Shown one piece after another: positions 36,210 through 46,638 of a stretch of 64,000 nucleotides of DNA. A program made the position numbers and the translations under genes. This DNA comes from Shewanella mangrovisoli (GTDB taxonomy: Bacteria > Pseudomonadota > Gammaproteobacteria > Enterobacterales > Shewanellaceae): positions 124,001 through 188,000 of the forward strand of contig NZ_CP080412.1 of NCBI RefSeq assembly GCF_019457635.1, given 5' to 3'. The notes under the pieces were generated by a model, which searched no databases, was not told the origin of the DNA, and was given only the letters and a program-made list of their open reading frames with translations. Numbering within the stretch: position 1 is the stretch's first letter; the number at the start of each line of letters is the position of its first letter.

Positions 36210-36719
36210 TCTATCTATGCGGCGATTTCGCTGTTTTTGCACTTTGTACTTTAGGTGTGTTTAACACCGCAGGATGAGTGCTTTTTTATCCAATCTTTAC
36301 ATTGTCAGCTTTGATCGCTGTCTATCCGTCCAAAACTGGTAAATCTGAGGTGTTTTTAACCATCTCTTATTTCGTTTCGGCTTTAAACTCATGCTTTATA
36401 TAACCTCAACATGCCAATGTGAGACAAAATGGGTCTTGCTTGTTGGACAAAATGTCTTTTGGCGTGTTTTGGGCTTATATCTTTATTTGTTCTTTATTTT
36501 TGAAGTTAAAATCTAAATATTTTCAATTAAACCTGTATTATCGGTCATTTATTCTGTAGCTGGTGAATTGGGATCTTGATCTCGTGTCATTATTTGTTAT
36601 CTATTTTCACTTTAAGGATAATCTTAAATTAAGTGGGGGCTTTAATGACTCACTCAAACGATTGCAGCGTTACCACTGCAATTACCCAACTCATAACGAC
36701 AAAAGTGTGAGAGAACGCT
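36210..36719 (+). promoter_or_regulatory. Upstream region of the formate dehydrogenase operon
   Basis: About 510 bp of AT-rich non-coding DNA before fdnG. Two copies of GACAAAATG (36423-36431 and 36446-36454) are spaced 23 bp and each lies in a dyad: AGAC-N7-GTCT (36422-36436) and GACA-AAA-TGTC (36446-36456). This looks like a tandem operator two helical turns apart. Downstream, a GG-N10-GC pair (TTGGCGTGTTTTGGGC, from 36459) has sigma-54-like spacing but poor consensus. No FNR site TTGAT-N4-ATCAA was seen. Confidence 0.45.
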
Positions 36720-39700
36720 ATGAACAGACGCCAGTTTTTTAAACTGTGTGCGGCCGGAGCGGCAACCTCAGCGATTTCAGCGCTGGGATTGATGTCCGAA
36801 AAGGCCTATGCAGCAGTGCGAGAGTTTAAGCTGATCGGAGCCAAAGAAACCCGTAACAACTGTCCGTATTGCTCGGTTGGTTGTGGCCTGCTGATGTACA
36901 GCCAAGGCAGTGGGGGGAAAAACTCTGAGCATGCTATTTTCCATATCGAGGGTGATGCCGATCATCCAGTAAACCGAGGTGCATTGTGCTCTAAGGGTGC
37001 TGGCCTTGTGGATTATGTTAACAGTCCACACCGTTTACAGTATCCAGAGTATCGCGCCCCCGGCAGCAACAAATGGGAACGGATCAGCTGGCATGATGCC
37101 TTTAAACGTATCGCACGTTTAATGAAAGATGACCGTGATGCGAACCTGATTGAGAAAAACGCCGATGGCGTAACGGTTAACCGTTGGTTAACCACAGGGA
37201 TGATGACCTCATCCGGTATGGCCAATGAAAGCGGCTTAGCGACCCAAAAATTTGCGCGCGCTTTAGGCCTAGTGGCTATCGATACTATTGCACGTAACTG
37301 ACACTCCCCAACGGTAGCAAGTCTTGCTCCAACATTTGGGCGCGGTGCCATGACCAACCACTGGATCGATATTAAAAATTCTAACGTAGTGATTATTATG
37401 GGCGGTAATGCCGCAGAAGCTCACCCTGTCGGATTCGGCTGGGTTACAGAAGCTATGCAGCATAACAATGCTAAGTTGATTGTGGTTGACCCACGTTTCA
37501 ACCGCAGTGCGTCATTGGCAGATCACTATGCCCCAATCCGCTCAGGAACTGACATAGCATTCCTTCTGGGTGTGATTCGCTATTTGATTTCGACCAATCA
37601 AGTTAACTTCGATTATGTGAAAGCCTATACCAACGCCAGTTATCTGGTGCGGGATGATTTTGACTTCCATGACGGCTTATTCTCAGGCTTTGATGAAGCA
37701 AAAGGTGAGTACAACAAAGAATCCTGGTTCTACCAACTCGACGAAGACGGCTATGCCAAAGTGGATGAAACACTTGAGCACCCGCGTTGTGTGTGGAACT
37801 TACTCAAACAACACGTAGAACGTTATGATTTTGTAACGGTAAGTAATATCACTGGTACGCCAACGGCGGACTACCAAGTGGTATGTGACGCCATTGCGAG
37901 CACTCATACTAAAGATCGTGTGGCAACCTTTATGTATGCGCTGGGCTGGACCCACCATAGTAAAGGTGCGCAGAACATCCGTTCTATGGCGATGATCCAG
38001 TTATTACTGGGTAACATTGGTCAGTTAGGCGGTGGTGTTAACGCATTGCGCGGTCACGCCAACGTTCAAGGTTCAACCGATATGGGGCTACTGGCCCAAA
38101 GTTTACCCGGTTACCTAAAACTGCCAAACGATAAAGAACCGACCTTAGCGGCTCACTTGGCGGCGAATACGCCTAAGCCATTGCGCCCAGGTCAAACCAA
38201 CTACTGGCAAAACTATCCGAAGTTTTATGTGTCCCTGCTCAAAGCCTTCTGGGGTGAGAACGCGACGCCTGAAAACGAGTTCGGTTATCAGTGGTTACCT
38301 AAGTGGGATCAGATGTATGACTTCGGTAAGCATCTGGACATGATGTACCGTGGCAAAGTGAACGGTTGCATCGTGCAAGGGGTTAACGCCATTAACTCCA
38401 TGCCTAACCGTAACAAGAACATCAAGGCGCTGAGTAACCTTAAGTACTTAGTGGTGCTTGATAACTTGTCATCGGAAACCGCCACCTTCTGGCAAAACGA
38501 ACCCGGTTTTAACGAGGTCGATACCGCCAGTATTCAAACCGAGGTCTTCCGCCTACCTGCGACCGTGTTCGCAGAGGAAGAAGGTTCGATCGTTAACTCT
38601 GGCCGCTGGATGCAATGGCACTATAAAGGGGCTAATCCTCCAGGCGAAGCGATGTCGGACTCTGAGATTGTCTCTGGCCTGCTGCAAGAGTTGAAACAGC
38701 TCTATCGTGAAGAGGGCGGCAAACTGCCCGAGCCGATTGAAGCGATTAACTGGAACTATATCGATCCGCACAACCCAAGCTCTATCGAACTGACGAAAGA
38801 GTTGAATGGTTATGATGTCGCGACCAAGCGTCAGATCAGCAGCTTTGCTGAACTGAAGGCCGATGGCAGTACCGCGAGTGCCTGTTGGATTTACGCGGGT
38901 TCTTGGACCGAAGCCGGTAACCAAATGGCTCGCCGCGATAACCATGATCCATCGGGTAAAGGTATTACGCCGGGCTGGGCCTTTGCATGGCCGCTTAACC
39001 GCCGCGTCCTCTACAACCGTGCCTCTTGCGATGTGAACGGTAAACCTTGGGATGAGCACCGTAAGATTGTCGAGTGGAAAGACGGCAAGTGGGAAGGGAT
39101 AGACGTGCCCGACTTTAATGCCAAGTTGAATCCACAGGAAAGTGCGCATCCTTTCATTATGCAGGCTGATGGCGTGGGTCGTTTCTTCGCGCTCAAACTG
39201 CTGAAAGAAGGACCGTTCCCAGAGCATTACGAGCCTGTCGAATCGCCTATCGGCACCAACCCACTGCATCCCAATGTGGTGCACAGCCCTGTGCTGCGTT
39301 GGTTCGAAGGGGTGAAAGACACTATCGGTACTAAAGAGGAATACCCCTACGCCTGTACCACTTACTCACTCACAGAGCACTTTAACTTCTGGACGACACA
39401 CTGCCGTTTAGCGGCGATTGCCATGCCAGAGACCTTTGTGGAAATGAATGAGCAATTGGCGGCAGAAAAAGGCATTAAGAATGGCGATTGGGTGAAAGTG
39501 AGCTCGAAACGTGGCCACATTCTCACCAAAGCCTTAGTGACTAAGCGTATGCGCCCATTGCAGGTCAATGGTCAAACGGTACACACACTCGGTATTCCAC
39601 GTCACGGTAGCCATAACGCGCTCACACGTAAGGCCTATAGTTGTAACGTCCTTACCACTGAGATGGGTGATGCCAACACGGGTGTGCCTGAGTACAAAGC

Positions 39701-39734
39701 GTTCCTCGTGAATGTTGAAAAGGCGGAGGTCTGA
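36720..39734 (+). CDS. fdnG: Selenocysteine formate dehydrogenase catalytic subunit FdnG
   Basis: Oxidises formate to CO2 in the periplasm using bis-MGD molybdenum, one Fe4S4 cluster and selenocysteine. Read through an in-frame UGA at 37299-37301 (Sec194), it gives 1004 aa, close to E. coli FdnG. A Tat signal starts MNRRQFFKLCAAG, the Fe4S4 ligands lie in NNCPYCSVGCG and GALCSKGA, and Sec194 is followed by HSPTVASLAPTFGRGAMTN. Molybdopterin-binding motifs include GGNAAEAHPVGFGW and, at the C-terminus, GIPRHGSHNALTR. A SECIS hairpin follows the UGA directly. Without recoding the frame would split into 193 aa and a downstream piece. Confidence 0.95.
37299..37340 (+). promoter_or_regulatory. Bacterial SECIS element at the fdnG UGA
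   Basis: Directly after UGA (37299-37301), the hairpin at 37313-37330 is GG-(bulged U)-AGCAA-GUC-UUGCU-CC. The bulged U and the GU in the apical loop are the features that SelB recognises in E. coli fdhF and fdnG. A lower stem CCCAA/TTGGG (37307-37311, 37336-37340) closes it. The apical loop lies about 20 bases after UGA, the right distance. Confidence 0.9.
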
Positions 39735-39736
39735 TA

Positions 39737-40651
39737 ATGGCGACTCAAGATATCATTCAACGTTCCGGCACTTCGCAAGCGACTCCGCCTGCACAGGCGA
39801 GAGTCGGTGGCGTGAAGCAAATTGCGAAGCTGTTTGACGCGACTAAGTGTAATGGTTGTAAAGCCTGTCAGGTCGCTTGCTCTGAATGGAATGACCTGCG
39901 TGAAGAAGTGGGTTCGTTCCAAGGGACTTATCAAAACCCAGCATCTCTGTCCCCAGAGTGCTGGACCCTGATGAAGTACAACGAGATCGAAGACCAAGGC
40001 AAATTACGTTGGCAGTTTACCCACAGTGCTTGTATGCACTGTGCGGATCCCGCCTGCTTAAAGGCCTGCTCTACCTCTGGCGCGATTATTCAACATGCCA
40101 ATGGCACTGTGGATTTCGATTCGGACAAATGTATTGGCTGCGGCTATTGTGCCAGTGCCTGTCCATTCGATATCCCGAAGATCAGCGCCGTCGACAACAA
40201 AGCCTACAAGTGCACTATGTGCTCTGACCGCTTGGCTGTTGGGCTGGAGCCTTCCTGCGTTAAGTCCTGTACCACGGGTGCGCTGCGTTTTGGCACGCGC
40301 GAAGACATGCTGTTCTACTCAGAAAAGCGTGTTAACGAGCTGAAAGAACGTGGTTTTGCTAAGGCGGGACTCTACAACCCTGAAGGTGTCGGTGGCACAG
40401 GCATGCTGATGATATTGCACGATGTCACTCAGCCTGAAACCTACGAAATGCCAAAGGATCCGCAAATCCCATTATCTGTCACCCTGTGGCAGGACTGGGT
40501 GAAACCACTAGGTACTGTCGGACTTCTGGCAACGGCGGCTGTGGCCTGCCTGCATAAGATCACCGTCGGTCGCAACATAGTGGAAGAGGACCAACCCGGC
40601 TATCAGCCGCCAGAGGACAAGGCGCAAGCGGAAGAGGAGGCCAAGAAATGA
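39737..40651 (+). CDS. fdnH: Formate dehydrogenase iron-sulfur subunit FdnH
   Basis: Electron-transfer subunit of 304 aa with four Fe4S4 clusters. The motifs are CNGCKACQVAC, CMHCADPACLKAC, CIGCGYCASACPFD and CTMCSDRLAVG with a later Cys in SCVKSC. A C-terminal membrane helix (PLGTVGLLATAAVACLHK) anchors it on the periplasmic face, as in E. coli FdnH. It starts 2 bp after the fdnG stop and overlaps fdnI by 4 bp. Confidence 0.96.
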   Translation: MATQDIIQRSGTSQATPPAQARVGGVKQIAKLFDATKCNGCKACQVACSEWNDLREEVGSFQGTYQNPASLSPECWTLMKYNEIEDQGKLRWQFTHSACMHCADPACLKACSTSGAIIQHANGTVDFDSDKCIGCGYCASACPFDIPKISAVDNKAYKCTMCSDRLAVGLEPSCVKSCTTGALRFGTREDMLFYSEKRVNELKERGFAKAGLYNPEGVGGTGMLMILHDVTQPETYEMPKDPQIPLSVTLWQDWVKPLGTVGLLATAAVACLHKITVGRNIVEEDQPGYQPPEDKAQAEEEAKK

Positions 40652-42245: not shown

Positions 42246-43676
42246 ATGATACAAATGATGACCCAAGTACCCGATACACCCCAAGCCCTGTACCGCGCGC
42301 TGCCGTCGATGGACAGTCTGCTCGCCGATGCGATATTGGCGCCCCTGCTGCAACGCTATGGTAAAGCAGCAGTAAAAGCGGCGTTGGATAGCCAGTTACG
42401 CACGGCGCGCGAGCTGATTGCCCAGGAGCGACGTTTACCCGCTTGGTGTGCTAACCCGGCGTTATTGAACGGATATTTGGTTGATCAATTGTCTAAGGAC
42501 TATAGCCATAGTCTTAAGCCCGTGTGGAACCTCACCGGAACAATCCTGCATACCAATCTTGGCCGTGCCCAGCAGTCTGAGGCGGCCATTCGTGCTGTGA
42601 CCTCTGTGATGCGTTATCCCACGCCGCTAGAGTTTGAATTAGCCGCCGGTGAGCGCGGCCATAGGGATAATGCCATTAGTGGGTTAATCCAGCGCCTAAC
42701 AGGGGCTGAGGCCTGCTGCGTGGTGAATAACAACGCCGCCGCTGTGCTGCTGATGTTATCTGCGGTCGCGGCGGGCAAAGAAGTGATCGTCTCCCGCGGC
42801 GAGCTGGTGGAAATCGGCGGCGCCTTTCGCATTCCAGACATTATGCGCCAAGCGGGCTGCACCTTAGTGGAGGTCGGCAGCACTAACCGTACTCACCTCA
42901 AGGACTATGAGCAGGCGATAACCGAAAATACCGCCGCTATTATGAAGGTGCATACCAGCAACTACCATATCAGTGGCTTTACCGCTTCGGTGGATGAGGC
43001 CAGATTGGGCCAACTCTGCCGCGAACGAGGTGTCGCGCTGATCTCGGATCTTGGCAGTGGTTCACTCACCGACTTACGCCGTTTTGGCCTAAAACAAGAG
43101 CCAACACCCCAAGCCATGTTGGCGGATGGCGTCGATCTGGTCAGTTTCTCCGGCGATAAACTCCTCGGCGGCCCGCAATCGGGCCTGATTGTCGGTAAGC
43201 AGGCGCTAATTAATAAGCTTCAAAGTCATCCGCTCAAGCGTGCATTGCGCTGCGACAAGCTGATTCTCGCGGCGCTCGAGGCGACGCTGATCCACTATCT
43301 CAACCCCGAATCCTTGGATCGGGAACTGCCGATTATGGCCAAATTTGCCCGCAGCCAAGCTGAGTTACGCCAAATTGGTGAGCGCCTGCAGCGCGCCTTA
43401 GCGCCACTGTTTGCTCCGAGTTATGGCATCGAGCTAGTGGAGTGCCAGACCCAAGTCGGTAGCGGCTCGCAGCCCGACACCTTTTTACCTTCAATCGCCC
43501 TGTGCTTTAACGCGCAAGAGGGCGGCAGTTTAACGTTGCTCGAGCAGCATTTTAAGCAGGCGCAGCGGCCTGTGATTGGCCGTATGACCCAAGATCAACT
43601 TCGTCTCGACCTGCGCGGTATCGATGATGAGGCCGAATTGTTAGCCGAACTCAGCACCTTAGGTGTGCAGCTATGA
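42246..43676 (+). CDS. selA: L-seryl-tRNA(Sec) selenium transferase SelA
   Basis: PLP enzyme that converts Ser-tRNA(Sec) to Sec-tRNA(Sec) using selenophosphate. The 476 aa protein has the PLP-Lys motif [14 protein letters not shown], the tRNA/substrate region [18 protein letters not shown], and [11 protein letters not shown], in the same order as E. coli SelA (463 aa). The start may be ATG 42246, 42255 or 42258. It overlaps selB by 4 bp (ATGA). It belongs to the same strand unit as fdnGHI-fdhE, so Sec synthesis genes can be made with the enzyme that needs them. Confidence 0.95.
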
Positions 43677-45694
43677 TTATGGTCACCGCTGGCCATGTCG
43701 ACCACGGCAAGAGCACGTTGATCCGTGCCTTGACGGGCATGAACACCGACAGGCTTCCCGAAGAAAAGCGCCGTGGCATGACTATCGATCTCGGCTACGC
43801 CTTTATGCCACTGCGAGATGGCACTCGCTTAGCCTTTATCGATGTGCCCGGCCATGAAAAATTTATCAATAACATGCTGGTGGGCGTGAGCCATGTGCGC
43901 CACGCGCTGTTGGTGTTGGCCTGTGACGATGGCGTGATGCCACAAACCCGCGAACATCTGCAAATTCTCGCGCTTTTACCGCTAAACAGTTTGACCTTAG
44001 TGCTGACCAAGCGGGATTTGGTCGATGACCAAACCGCCGCCAAGTTAACCCTAGAGGGGATGGCGCTGCTTGCTGAATACGGTATCGAGGCCAGTGGCGT
44101 ATTTGAGGTTTGCGCGAATGATGCAGGCGATGCGGGAGTAGACACTCTTAAGCAACATATTTTGGATATTGCCGAGCAGCAATCGACCCAAGCGGAAGAT
44201 GCCAGCAGCTTTAGGATGACACTCGATCGTGCCTTTAGCGTTAAAGGCGCTGGCTGTGTGGTCACGGGCACTGTGATTAGCGGCAGTGTGTGTATCGGCG
44301 ATAGCCTCTACAGTTCTGGGCAAAAGGCCAAACTACGGGTGCGCGGCATTCATTGCCAAGGGATGGAAGCCCACAGAGCCTTGAGTGGCACTCGGGTCGC
44401 CTTAAATCTTACTGGCGTTGATAACCATAGGACGCCCGCTCGCGGTGACTGGTTAAGCTGTCTGCCTCAGGCTGAGCTGTGCGCTAGACCCGTAGTGCAA
44501 ATTCGCAGTTTTGAACCCATCAGCCATTGGCAAAATATGCATTGTCACCACGGCGCCGACCATACCCTAGGGCGAGTATCGCTTCTGGATGAAGCCTATG
44601 AGCAGGGGCGTTATCTGGCCGAAATTGTGCTCGATAAGCCATTGCTGCTATGTCAGGACGACCCGATAGTGCTCAGGCATATTGGTGGCAAGCAAACGCT
44701 GGGCGCTGGGCGGGTGCTGGCATTAAAAGTTCCCAATCGTAAGAAGCGTACGCCGGAGCGTGTCAGTAAGTTGCAACAGCTGGCTCAGCTCTCCAATCCG
44801 GTAAATGTGCTGGCGCTACTCGGTCAGACTGAGGCGCTCAGTATCGATGAAATCCGTTGGCGCTGGCAGCTAACCGATGAAGGGCTGGCCGCCATGCTGG
44901 CGCAGGCGGGGCTGACTCGCCTCGGAGCCTATTGGCTATCGACCCAGTTACTTGAGCAAGAAAAACAGCAGTTTATCGATCTGTTACGTGAATACCATCA
45001 ACAGCACCCCGACCAATTGGGGCTGGGGCGTAATCGCCTGCAACGCATGAGCCACAACGTATTGCCCAGCGAGCTTGCCAATAAGGTGCTCGATAGCCTC
45101 TGCCAAGACGGACAGATGGTGCTGCGTGGCGCCTTGCTGCAGCTGGCGGATCACAGGATTGTCCTCGATAGCGAGGCACAACAGTGCTGGCAACGCTTGG
45201 CCCCTTGGTTGGCACTGCAAACCTCGCCCGTGTGGGTGACTGAAATGGGGGAATACCTCGAACTCGAGCCCGCCAAACTCAGATTGCTGTGTTTTCAACT
45301 GGTGCAACAGGGCTTTATTACCGCGGTGGTGAAGGACAGATATCTGCTGAGCGAGCAGTTGTGTCATTACGCCAATCTGGTGCGAGCGCATGTGGAAACT
45401 CACGGCAAACTTGAAACCGCAGAGTTTAAGGATCTGATTGGCCTAGGCCGTAAGGTGAGTATTCAGCTGTTGGAGTTTTTTGACCGCAGTGGTTTTACCC
45501 GTAGGAAGTATCGCAGTAACAGTCGGGAGATTCGGGATGGGGAACTGTTTTATTCCCATGAGAATTGGCGGAAGAACATAGGAGTCGAACCTACCCAGGA
45601 CTGCTGGCAGCCCTACCCGGATTTGAAGTCCGGACGCCTCACCGGAGACGACGTTCTTCCAATAGAAGACAAACCGATAGTAGAAAATGCTTAA
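43673..45694 (+). CDS. selB: Selenocysteine-specific elongation factor SelB with antisense-tRNA tail
   Basis: GTPase that brings Sec-tRNA(Sec) to the ribosome and binds SECIS. GTP motifs are [10 protein letters not shown] (G1), DVPGHEKFI (G3) and TKRD (G4), followed by EF-Tu-like domains and C-terminal winged helices. The last of these holds [20 protein letters not shown] and ends RDGELFY, where E. coli SelB stops (614 aa). Here the frame runs on about 48 codons to residue 673 through the complement of selC. No stop arises because the tRNA anticodon complement is out of frame. See the finding on selB-selC. Confidence 0.94.
45566..45660 (-). tRNA. selC: tRNA-Sec (anticodon UCA), antisense inside selB
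   Basis: Read from 45660 to 45566 this is 95 nt, the length of E. coli selC. It has an 8-bp acceptor stem GGAAGAAC / GTTCTTCC, anticodon loop CTTCAAA with TCA at 45624-45626 (minus), a long variable arm (GGGCTG / CAGTCC), T-loop GGTTCGACTCC, discriminator G, and encoded CCA. All are hallmarks of selenocysteine tRNA. The gene is entirely within the selB frame, opposite strand. A sigma-70 promoter lies just upstream. Confidence 0.97.
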
Positions 45695-45705
45695 ACCTGA
45701 ATCAA
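45677..45705 (-). promoter_or_regulatory. Promoter of selC, overlapping the selB stop codon
   Basis: On the minus strand, TTGATT (45705-45700) and TACTAT (45682-45677) are spaced by exactly 17 bp. The -10 ends 16 bp before the tRNA 5' end at 45660. The box spans the last selB codons and stop (45692-45694). The fit to sigma-70 consensus is good (4 of 6 in each box). Confidence 0.72.
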
Positions 45706-45801: not shown

Positions 45802-46638
45802 ATGGAATATCATTCACACGCAGTGGTTACTGAAAGAAAGGTGACCCTTTTAGAGCAGGGGCAGGCTTCCGAGTTAACCGATTATGTAGCTAACGAGGTG
45901 CGAGTGGCGCTGGTGTATAACGGCATCGCCCACACTGTAATGCTCGCCAGCCCTGAAAATCTAGAAGAGTTCGCCATTGGCTTTACCTTGTCGGAGCGGA
46001 TTGTTTCCCATGTGAATGAAATCAAAGGTGTAGATCTCGAGTTCACCCCCGAAGGCGTGCTCATTCAGGTGGAAATCACCCAAAGATGCTTTATGGAACT
46101 CAAGCAGCAACGGCGCAATATGGCTGGCCGTACTGGCTGTGGCCTTTGTGGTGTGGCGCAGTTGGAGGAAGCGGTTAAACCCGTTATCCGCGTGGACTCG
46201 GACGCCAGATTTAATATCGATCATCTGCAGCTTGCCCTTGAGCAGATCAAAGAGAATCAACATCACTTTAAGCTCACGGGGGCAACCCACGCCGCCATGG
46301 GTTTAGACGAGGAAGGACAAATCATCGCCGCCTTTGAGGACATAGGTCGGCACATTGCACTGGATAAATTAATCGGTGGATTTTCAATGCGTCAGGCACA
46401 GCGACCTGTCGCAGTGTTGCTCACTAGCCGCGCCAGTTTTGAAATGGTGCAAAAGGCAGCCAGTGCCAATATCCAAATTCTGTTTGCTATGTCCGCCGTG
46501 ACTTCACTGGCGTTGGAATTAGCAGAGAAAAGCAACATCACGCTTATCGGTTTTTGCCGTAATGGCAGAGCCACGCTCTACACCCATAGCTATCGGTTAT
46601 CGGGAGTAAATCGTGGCTGTCTAGCGAAAGCCATCTAA
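45802..46638 (+). CDS. fdhD: Formate dehydrogenase accessory sulfurtransferase FdhD
   Basis: Moves sulfur from IscS to the molybdenum cofactor of formate dehydrogenase before export. The 278 aa protein has the active Cys pair in GRTGCGLCGVAQLEEA (about residue 112-115 of the conserved loop), EEFAIGFTLSERIV near the N-terminus, and the nucleotide/cofactor-binding GATHAAMGLDEEGQIIAAFEDIGRHIALDKLIG region, given here in parts: THAAMGLDEEG and EDIGRHIALDKLIG. GAGGG precedes ATG 45802. It lies downstream of selC's promoter and probably has its own promoter. Confidence 0.95.
   Translation: MEYHSHAVVTERKVTLLEQGQASELTDYVANEVRVALVYNGIAHTVMLASPENLEEFAIGFTLSERIVSHVNEIKGVDLEFTPEGVLIQVEITQRCFMELKQQRRNMAGRTGCGLCGVAQLEEAVKPVIRVDSDARFNIDHLQLALEQIKENQHHFKLTGATHAAMGLDEEGQIIAAFEDIGRHIALDKLIGGFSMRQAQRPVAVLLTSRASFEMVQKAASANIQILFAMSAVTSLALELAEKSNITLIGFCRNGRATLYTHSYRLSGVNRGCLAKAI

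Follow-up and report, generated by a model that had tools for sequence, protein, structure and literature searches.

Results

Anatomy of the selB–selC Locus

The window, the whole 64,000-nt stretch of the Shewanella mangrovisoli genome analyzed here, contains a selenocysteine formate dehydrogenase locus on its plus strand. A large frame at 36633..39737 (+), which we take to be the formate dehydrogenase large subunit, stays open when its in-frame TGA is read as selenocysteine; it contains a SECIS_3 match at 37296–37354 and is likely a client of the selenocysteine system. The frame at 42246..43676 (+), presumably selA from its position and sequence features, overlaps the start of selB by 4 nt. 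selB (43673..45694, +) encodes 673 residues, and fdhD (45802..46638, +; Pfam FdhD-NarQ) follows downstream on the same strand.

The selC gene lies on the minus strand at 45566..45660, entirely within the selB ORF. ARAGORN finds a single tRNA in the window—tRNA-SeC, anticodon tca, at 45566–45660 (−)—and the Rfam model RF01852 matches 45570–45660 (−) at 85 bits (gathering score 47; E 3.7e-16). Past the end of the model, the minus-strand sequence at 45566–45569 is GCCA; the CCA is therefore encoded within the 95-nt gene. The fold of the selC strand (−40.9 kcal/mol) shows an acceptor stem and a variable arm that are both long. An earlier note on this DNA had placed a 95-nt tRNA-Sec (anticodon UCA, CCA encoded) wholly antisense inside selB, and the minus-strand ARAGORN call, RF01852, and the ORF agree on that placement. 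The note was also right that the complement of the anticodon, TGA, does not fall in the selB frame, which reads open across selC with TGG (Trp, the complement of CCA) at 45566–45568 and CCA (Pro, at the tRNA 5′ end) at 45659–45661.

The selB product carries the Pfam domains GTP_EFTU, Beta-barrel_SelB, SelB_WH_2nd_bact, SelB-wing_2, and SelB-wing_3; with the match to PDB 5lzb, these identify the EF-Tu-like GTPase domain and the winged-helix domains of a bacterial SelB. The E. coli-type SelB of 5lzb (614 aa) aligns to residues 1–626, and selC starts at codon 632; the SelB core is therefore complete ahead of selC, and residues 627–673 are extra. We refer to residues up to 626 as the core and to 627–673 as the tail, which is made up of five spacer codons and then of codons read from the complement of selC and its promoter. 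The C-terminal extension of SelB thus amounts to a translation of the tRNA-Sec gene's complement.

A decayed selC copy, or a selB stop lost through sequencing error, could in principle mimic this arrangement. Here selC is an 85-bit tRNA-Sec and the sole one above the cut-off in its genome, and the same open frame recurs in 24 genomes; nothing turned up in favor of such an artefact, and we give it almost no weight. In the S. mangrovisoli genome (4.71 Mb, one contig), RF01852 returned 14 matches at E ≤ 0.001, among which selC alone exceeds the gathering score and the runner-up reaches 46.3 bits; seven of the weaker matches (L002–L008) are tRNA-Ser or tRNA-Tyr. The earlier note had allowed for a second, intact selC elsewhere, and no further selC lies above the gathering score in this genome.

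Forms of the Overlap Across Shewanellaceae

We compared the locus across relatives drawn from two samples. A genus sample of 97 genomes yielded 41 with a 95-nt selC of at least 77 bits, and an order sample of 394 genomes added three from the family—two of the genus and one of a second genus—for a total of 44. SelB was recognized by tblastn in 44/44 loci. The closest named record among those scanned was Shewanella sp. ANA-3 (99% identity over 240 residues), with very near records possibly absent.

selC is fully nested in the selB frame in 24 of the 44 Shewanellaceae genomes, each of which has a spacer of exactly 15 nt. Another 18 show a partial overlap in other frames: The selB stop is a TGA 23 nt into selC, in the T-loop, in 17, and a TAG 16 nt into selC in one. 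The remaining two lack overlap: In G062, selB stops 13 nt short of selC, and in G001 the two genes are separated by about 1 kb. Conservation across Shewanella relatives, a point raised in the earlier note, accordingly holds for full nesting in just over half of the genomes and for overlap in any form in 42/44. The same note argued that the arrangement locks the two genes together during inheritance. This stands insofar as selC is convergent with, and close behind, selB in 43/44 genomes; it does not stand as a strict lock, given the displaced selC of G001 and the case of G092, whose spacer is one base shorter than that of its relative G057 and whose full nesting is lost.

On a tree of SelB cores rooted with eight Photobacterium rows as outgroup, the three overlap states need at least four changes and the reading frame among overlapping rows needs two. 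The stop position needs at least 11, where the 10 positions seen set a minimum of nine. A small clade of three illustrates this: Nesting with the 15-nt spacer occurs in two of its genomes, whereas in the other the spacer is 14 nt, the frame is shifted, and nesting is lost. The prevalence of overlap could reflect selection or common descent only.

Two side observations concern the tRNA itself. In part of the partial-overlap group (L020, L022, and L033–L046), short inverted repeats flank selC and would pair the 5′ leader of the precursor with its 3′ trailer, as in AAGUGAU with AUCACUU; L048 has no such repeats. As a feature of the nested form, a leader–trailer stem was ruled out (mean z 0.3 in the 24 nested versus −4.2 in the 18 partial loci). 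A second kind of tRNA-Sec(UCA), 92 nt long, occurs in L049–L052 (genomes G022, G094, G092, and G057, all of the genus Shewanella), and selA starts just downstream of it in L049 and L050, the two loci checked by Pfam. G057, G092, and G094 carry this 92-nt tRNA-Sec as well as the 95-nt selC at selB and may therefore hold two selenocysteine systems.

A Candidate selC Promoter Spans the selB Stop

Because selC is oriented opposite to selB, it requires a promoter of its own. The proposed element, TTGATT-17-TACTAT, occupies 45677..45705 (−), with the −35 hexamer at 45700–45705 and the −10 hexamer at 45677–45682. The selB stop codon, TAA at 45692..45694 (+), falls within its spacer, in line with the earlier claim that the promoter covers this stop. 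A generic promoter scan found 0 candidates at its threshold of 9; TTGATT-17-TACTAT scores 8/12 matches. The pattern TTGNNN-17-TANNNT, ending 14–16 nt ahead of selC, is nevertheless kept at the same place in 44/44 relatives. The shuffled control applies to a looser score, which averaged 8.2 matches in the 60-nt regions upstream of selC against 6.9 in shuffles. In our reading, selC is probably transcribed from the proposed promoter.

The SelB Tail Beyond selC Evolves Like Noncoding DNA

We next considered whether the tail is a selected part of the protein. A long open frame in 24 genomes would favor a functional extension of SelB, for example one that binds tRNA-Sec or SECIS RNA. Frame 0 of the selC complement, in turn, is open in 16/16 distinct Shewanellaceae selC sequences, a set that includes those with SelB in another frame and the nonoverlapping L014 and L015. 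Since frame 0 is open even where selB does not use it, it is the tRNA sequence of this lineage that accounts for the openness. Outside Shewanellaceae, it is open in 19 of 40 distinct 94–96-nt selC sequences. We therefore dropped the open frame as a sign of selection, as it also occurs in selC genes that no selB crosses.

Across 19 nested rows without indels (leaving out L024, L026, L018, L021, and L106), changes on the tree at codon positions 1/2/3 number 85/40/315 in the last 80 core codons, and the codons after selC show 23/20/21. With parsimony changes treated as independent, the latter differ from the core (Fisher p 3e-9) and fit an even split (p 0.93). The five spacer codons show 6/9/17, a weak third-position excess (p 0.018 versus an even split). 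Counts over all 24 nested rows are 140/75/440 for the core, 13/17/25 for the spacer, and 49/47/44 after selC, where the last figure also takes in rows that have indels or stop earlier; the codon count for the partial-overlap group left out L047 and L048. With no coding signature after selC, the tail beyond the tRNA gene evolves like noncoding DNA, although promoter constraint also acts there and could blur such a signature.

The spacer is intermediate between the core and the codons after selC, and of all the results this one speaks most against an entirely passive tail: The third-position excess suggests that some constraint on the protein may act on the first residues of the tail. The constant 15-nt length of the spacer in the nested rows points the same way. 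No stops have arisen in the spacer, where 2.8 would be expected without constraint (P(0) 0.06); counting G062, whose stop precedes selC, as one such event gives 0.23.

AlphaFold, run on 32 aligned SelB sequences, gives a mean pLDDT of 82.5 overall and values below 50 for residues 630–673, so the tail is predicted to be disordered, in an alignment where 6 of the 31 other rows have the full tail. The tail is also absent or shortened in 20 of the 44 genomes. The codon-position test and the structure model ruled out a selected tail as the main reading, and we consider a functional extension very unlikely, its two points of support being the shared open frame and the weak spacer signal. We instead read residues 627–673 as a tolerated read-through, a by-product of the gene arrangement and not a selected domain, with a probability of roughly 0.75. 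The tail is presumably translated and harmless.

Comparison Beyond Shewanellaceae

Photobacterium shares the convergent selB/selC order and differs in its spacing: The selB stop precedes selC by 5–63 nt in 16/16 loci, with no overlap, so a SelB without the tail is viable there. This count leaves out a 17th locus, L094 (Photobacterium sp. SKA34), whose selC has no SelB match in the fetched 6 kb. A published analysis likewise describes a stop that keeps selB and selC apart in Photobacterium damselae (Mukai 2021, PMC8124441).

Other arrangements place selC on the selB strand or ahead of selB. In a class sample of 369 genomes, nine outside the order had a SelB match; in eight of these, selC follows selB on the same strand at a distance of 0–339 nt and does not overlap it, and the ninth has no selC in the fetched stretch. 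In one gammaproteobacterial genome outside the order (L151), selC is on the selB strand and its first base comes directly after the selB stop codon. A locus from another family of the order (L110) likewise has a same-strand selC downstream of selB. Among Pasteurellaceae loci whose fetched stretch contains both genes, selC lies upstream of selB and not at its end. The simplest route to the Shewanella arrangement would be that selC was inverted behind selB and that the Shewanella selB then lost its stop.

In Alphaproteobacteria, as in the window, the whole tRNA-Sec lies inside the selB frame, but selC is on the selB strand, and RNA processing has been proposed as able to cut the selB mRNA there (PMC8124441). 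As selC in the window is on the opposite strand, this model does not apply to it.

Opposing Transcription as a Possible Constraint

Within the selenocysteine locus, selC stands tail to tail against selB and is presumably driven by its own promoter, on the strand opposite to selA–selB–fdhD. The gap between the genes is so short that the selB frame meets no stop ahead of selC; it continues through the stop-free tRNA complement and ends at the first stop, in the proposed selC promoter.

Such an arrangement raises the question of control. In 43/44 relatives fdhD lies beyond selC on the selB strand, about 137–297 nt past it, so that any transcript running from selB into fdhD would include the complement of selC, regardless of the selB frame. 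Antisense or collision control would thus be independent of ORF overlap. A scan of the window found no intrinsic-terminator-like site between selB and selC, and a T5 run follows within 150 nt of selC in only 6/44 relatives. Taken with the conserved promoter-like element and the position of fdhD, this scarcity of terminator-like sites makes opposing transcripts plausible. We infer that opposing transcripts exist over selB and selC; it is possible that they act on the SelB : tRNA-Sec ratio.

Under antisense or collision control, opposing selB–fdhD and selC transcripts would lower each other and so balance SelB and tRNA-Sec. The convergent selC kept close behind selB in 43/44 genomes, the promoter-like element in all 44, the downstream fdhD, and the few terminator-like sites are consistent with this idea, which has also been put forward in the literature (Mukai 2021, PMC8124441). 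The same features would follow from inheritance, and a search of titles and the starts of abstracts found no transcript data for the selB–selC locus. Structured tRNAs are, moreover, poor antisense partners. We accordingly hold such control to be unlikely. It would be compatible with a by-product tail, and neither excludes the other.

A further form of this idea holds that selection keeps selC convergent and packed against selB–fdhD because opposing transcription sets the SelB : tRNA-Sec ratio, which we regard as equally doubtful. On this doubtful reading, the ORF overlap, in any frame, would be the outward sign of selection against space and terminators between the two genes.

Discussion

The reversed selB–selC overlap is already known. 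Section 2.4 of Mukai 2021 (PMC8124441) reports it from Shewanella and from a few Ferrimonas, locates the selC promoter around the stop codon of selB, and raises the possibility of a cis-encoded antisense role for the transcripts; as far as the parts consulted extend, reviews from 2022 (PMC9312934) and 2026 (PMC13188914) repeat the overlap. The window matches the published form throughout, with no difference in the window. Both share a tail that starts over the tRNA with Trp at the CCA end and passes a Pro at the tRNA 5′ end, and the promoter proposed here is nearly identical to that given for S. oneidensis MR-1.

To this description we add a count of the overlap forms, a second antisense form in which selB stops within the T-loop, and the finding that no coding signature is present beyond selC. 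The second form, found in 17 of our 44 genomes, is not mentioned in the text of PMC8124441. The overlap reported in the earlier note is correct, as is its anatomy, and had already been described for Shewanella; the interpretation placed on it is partly supported.

Overlap alone gives no ground to read regulation. For annotation, the part of the Shewanella SelB tail that is read from the tRNA complement is not to be taken as a domain. If selC antisense does control expression, it would be an uncommon means of keeping two components of the same machinery, a tRNA and its elongation factor, in balance.
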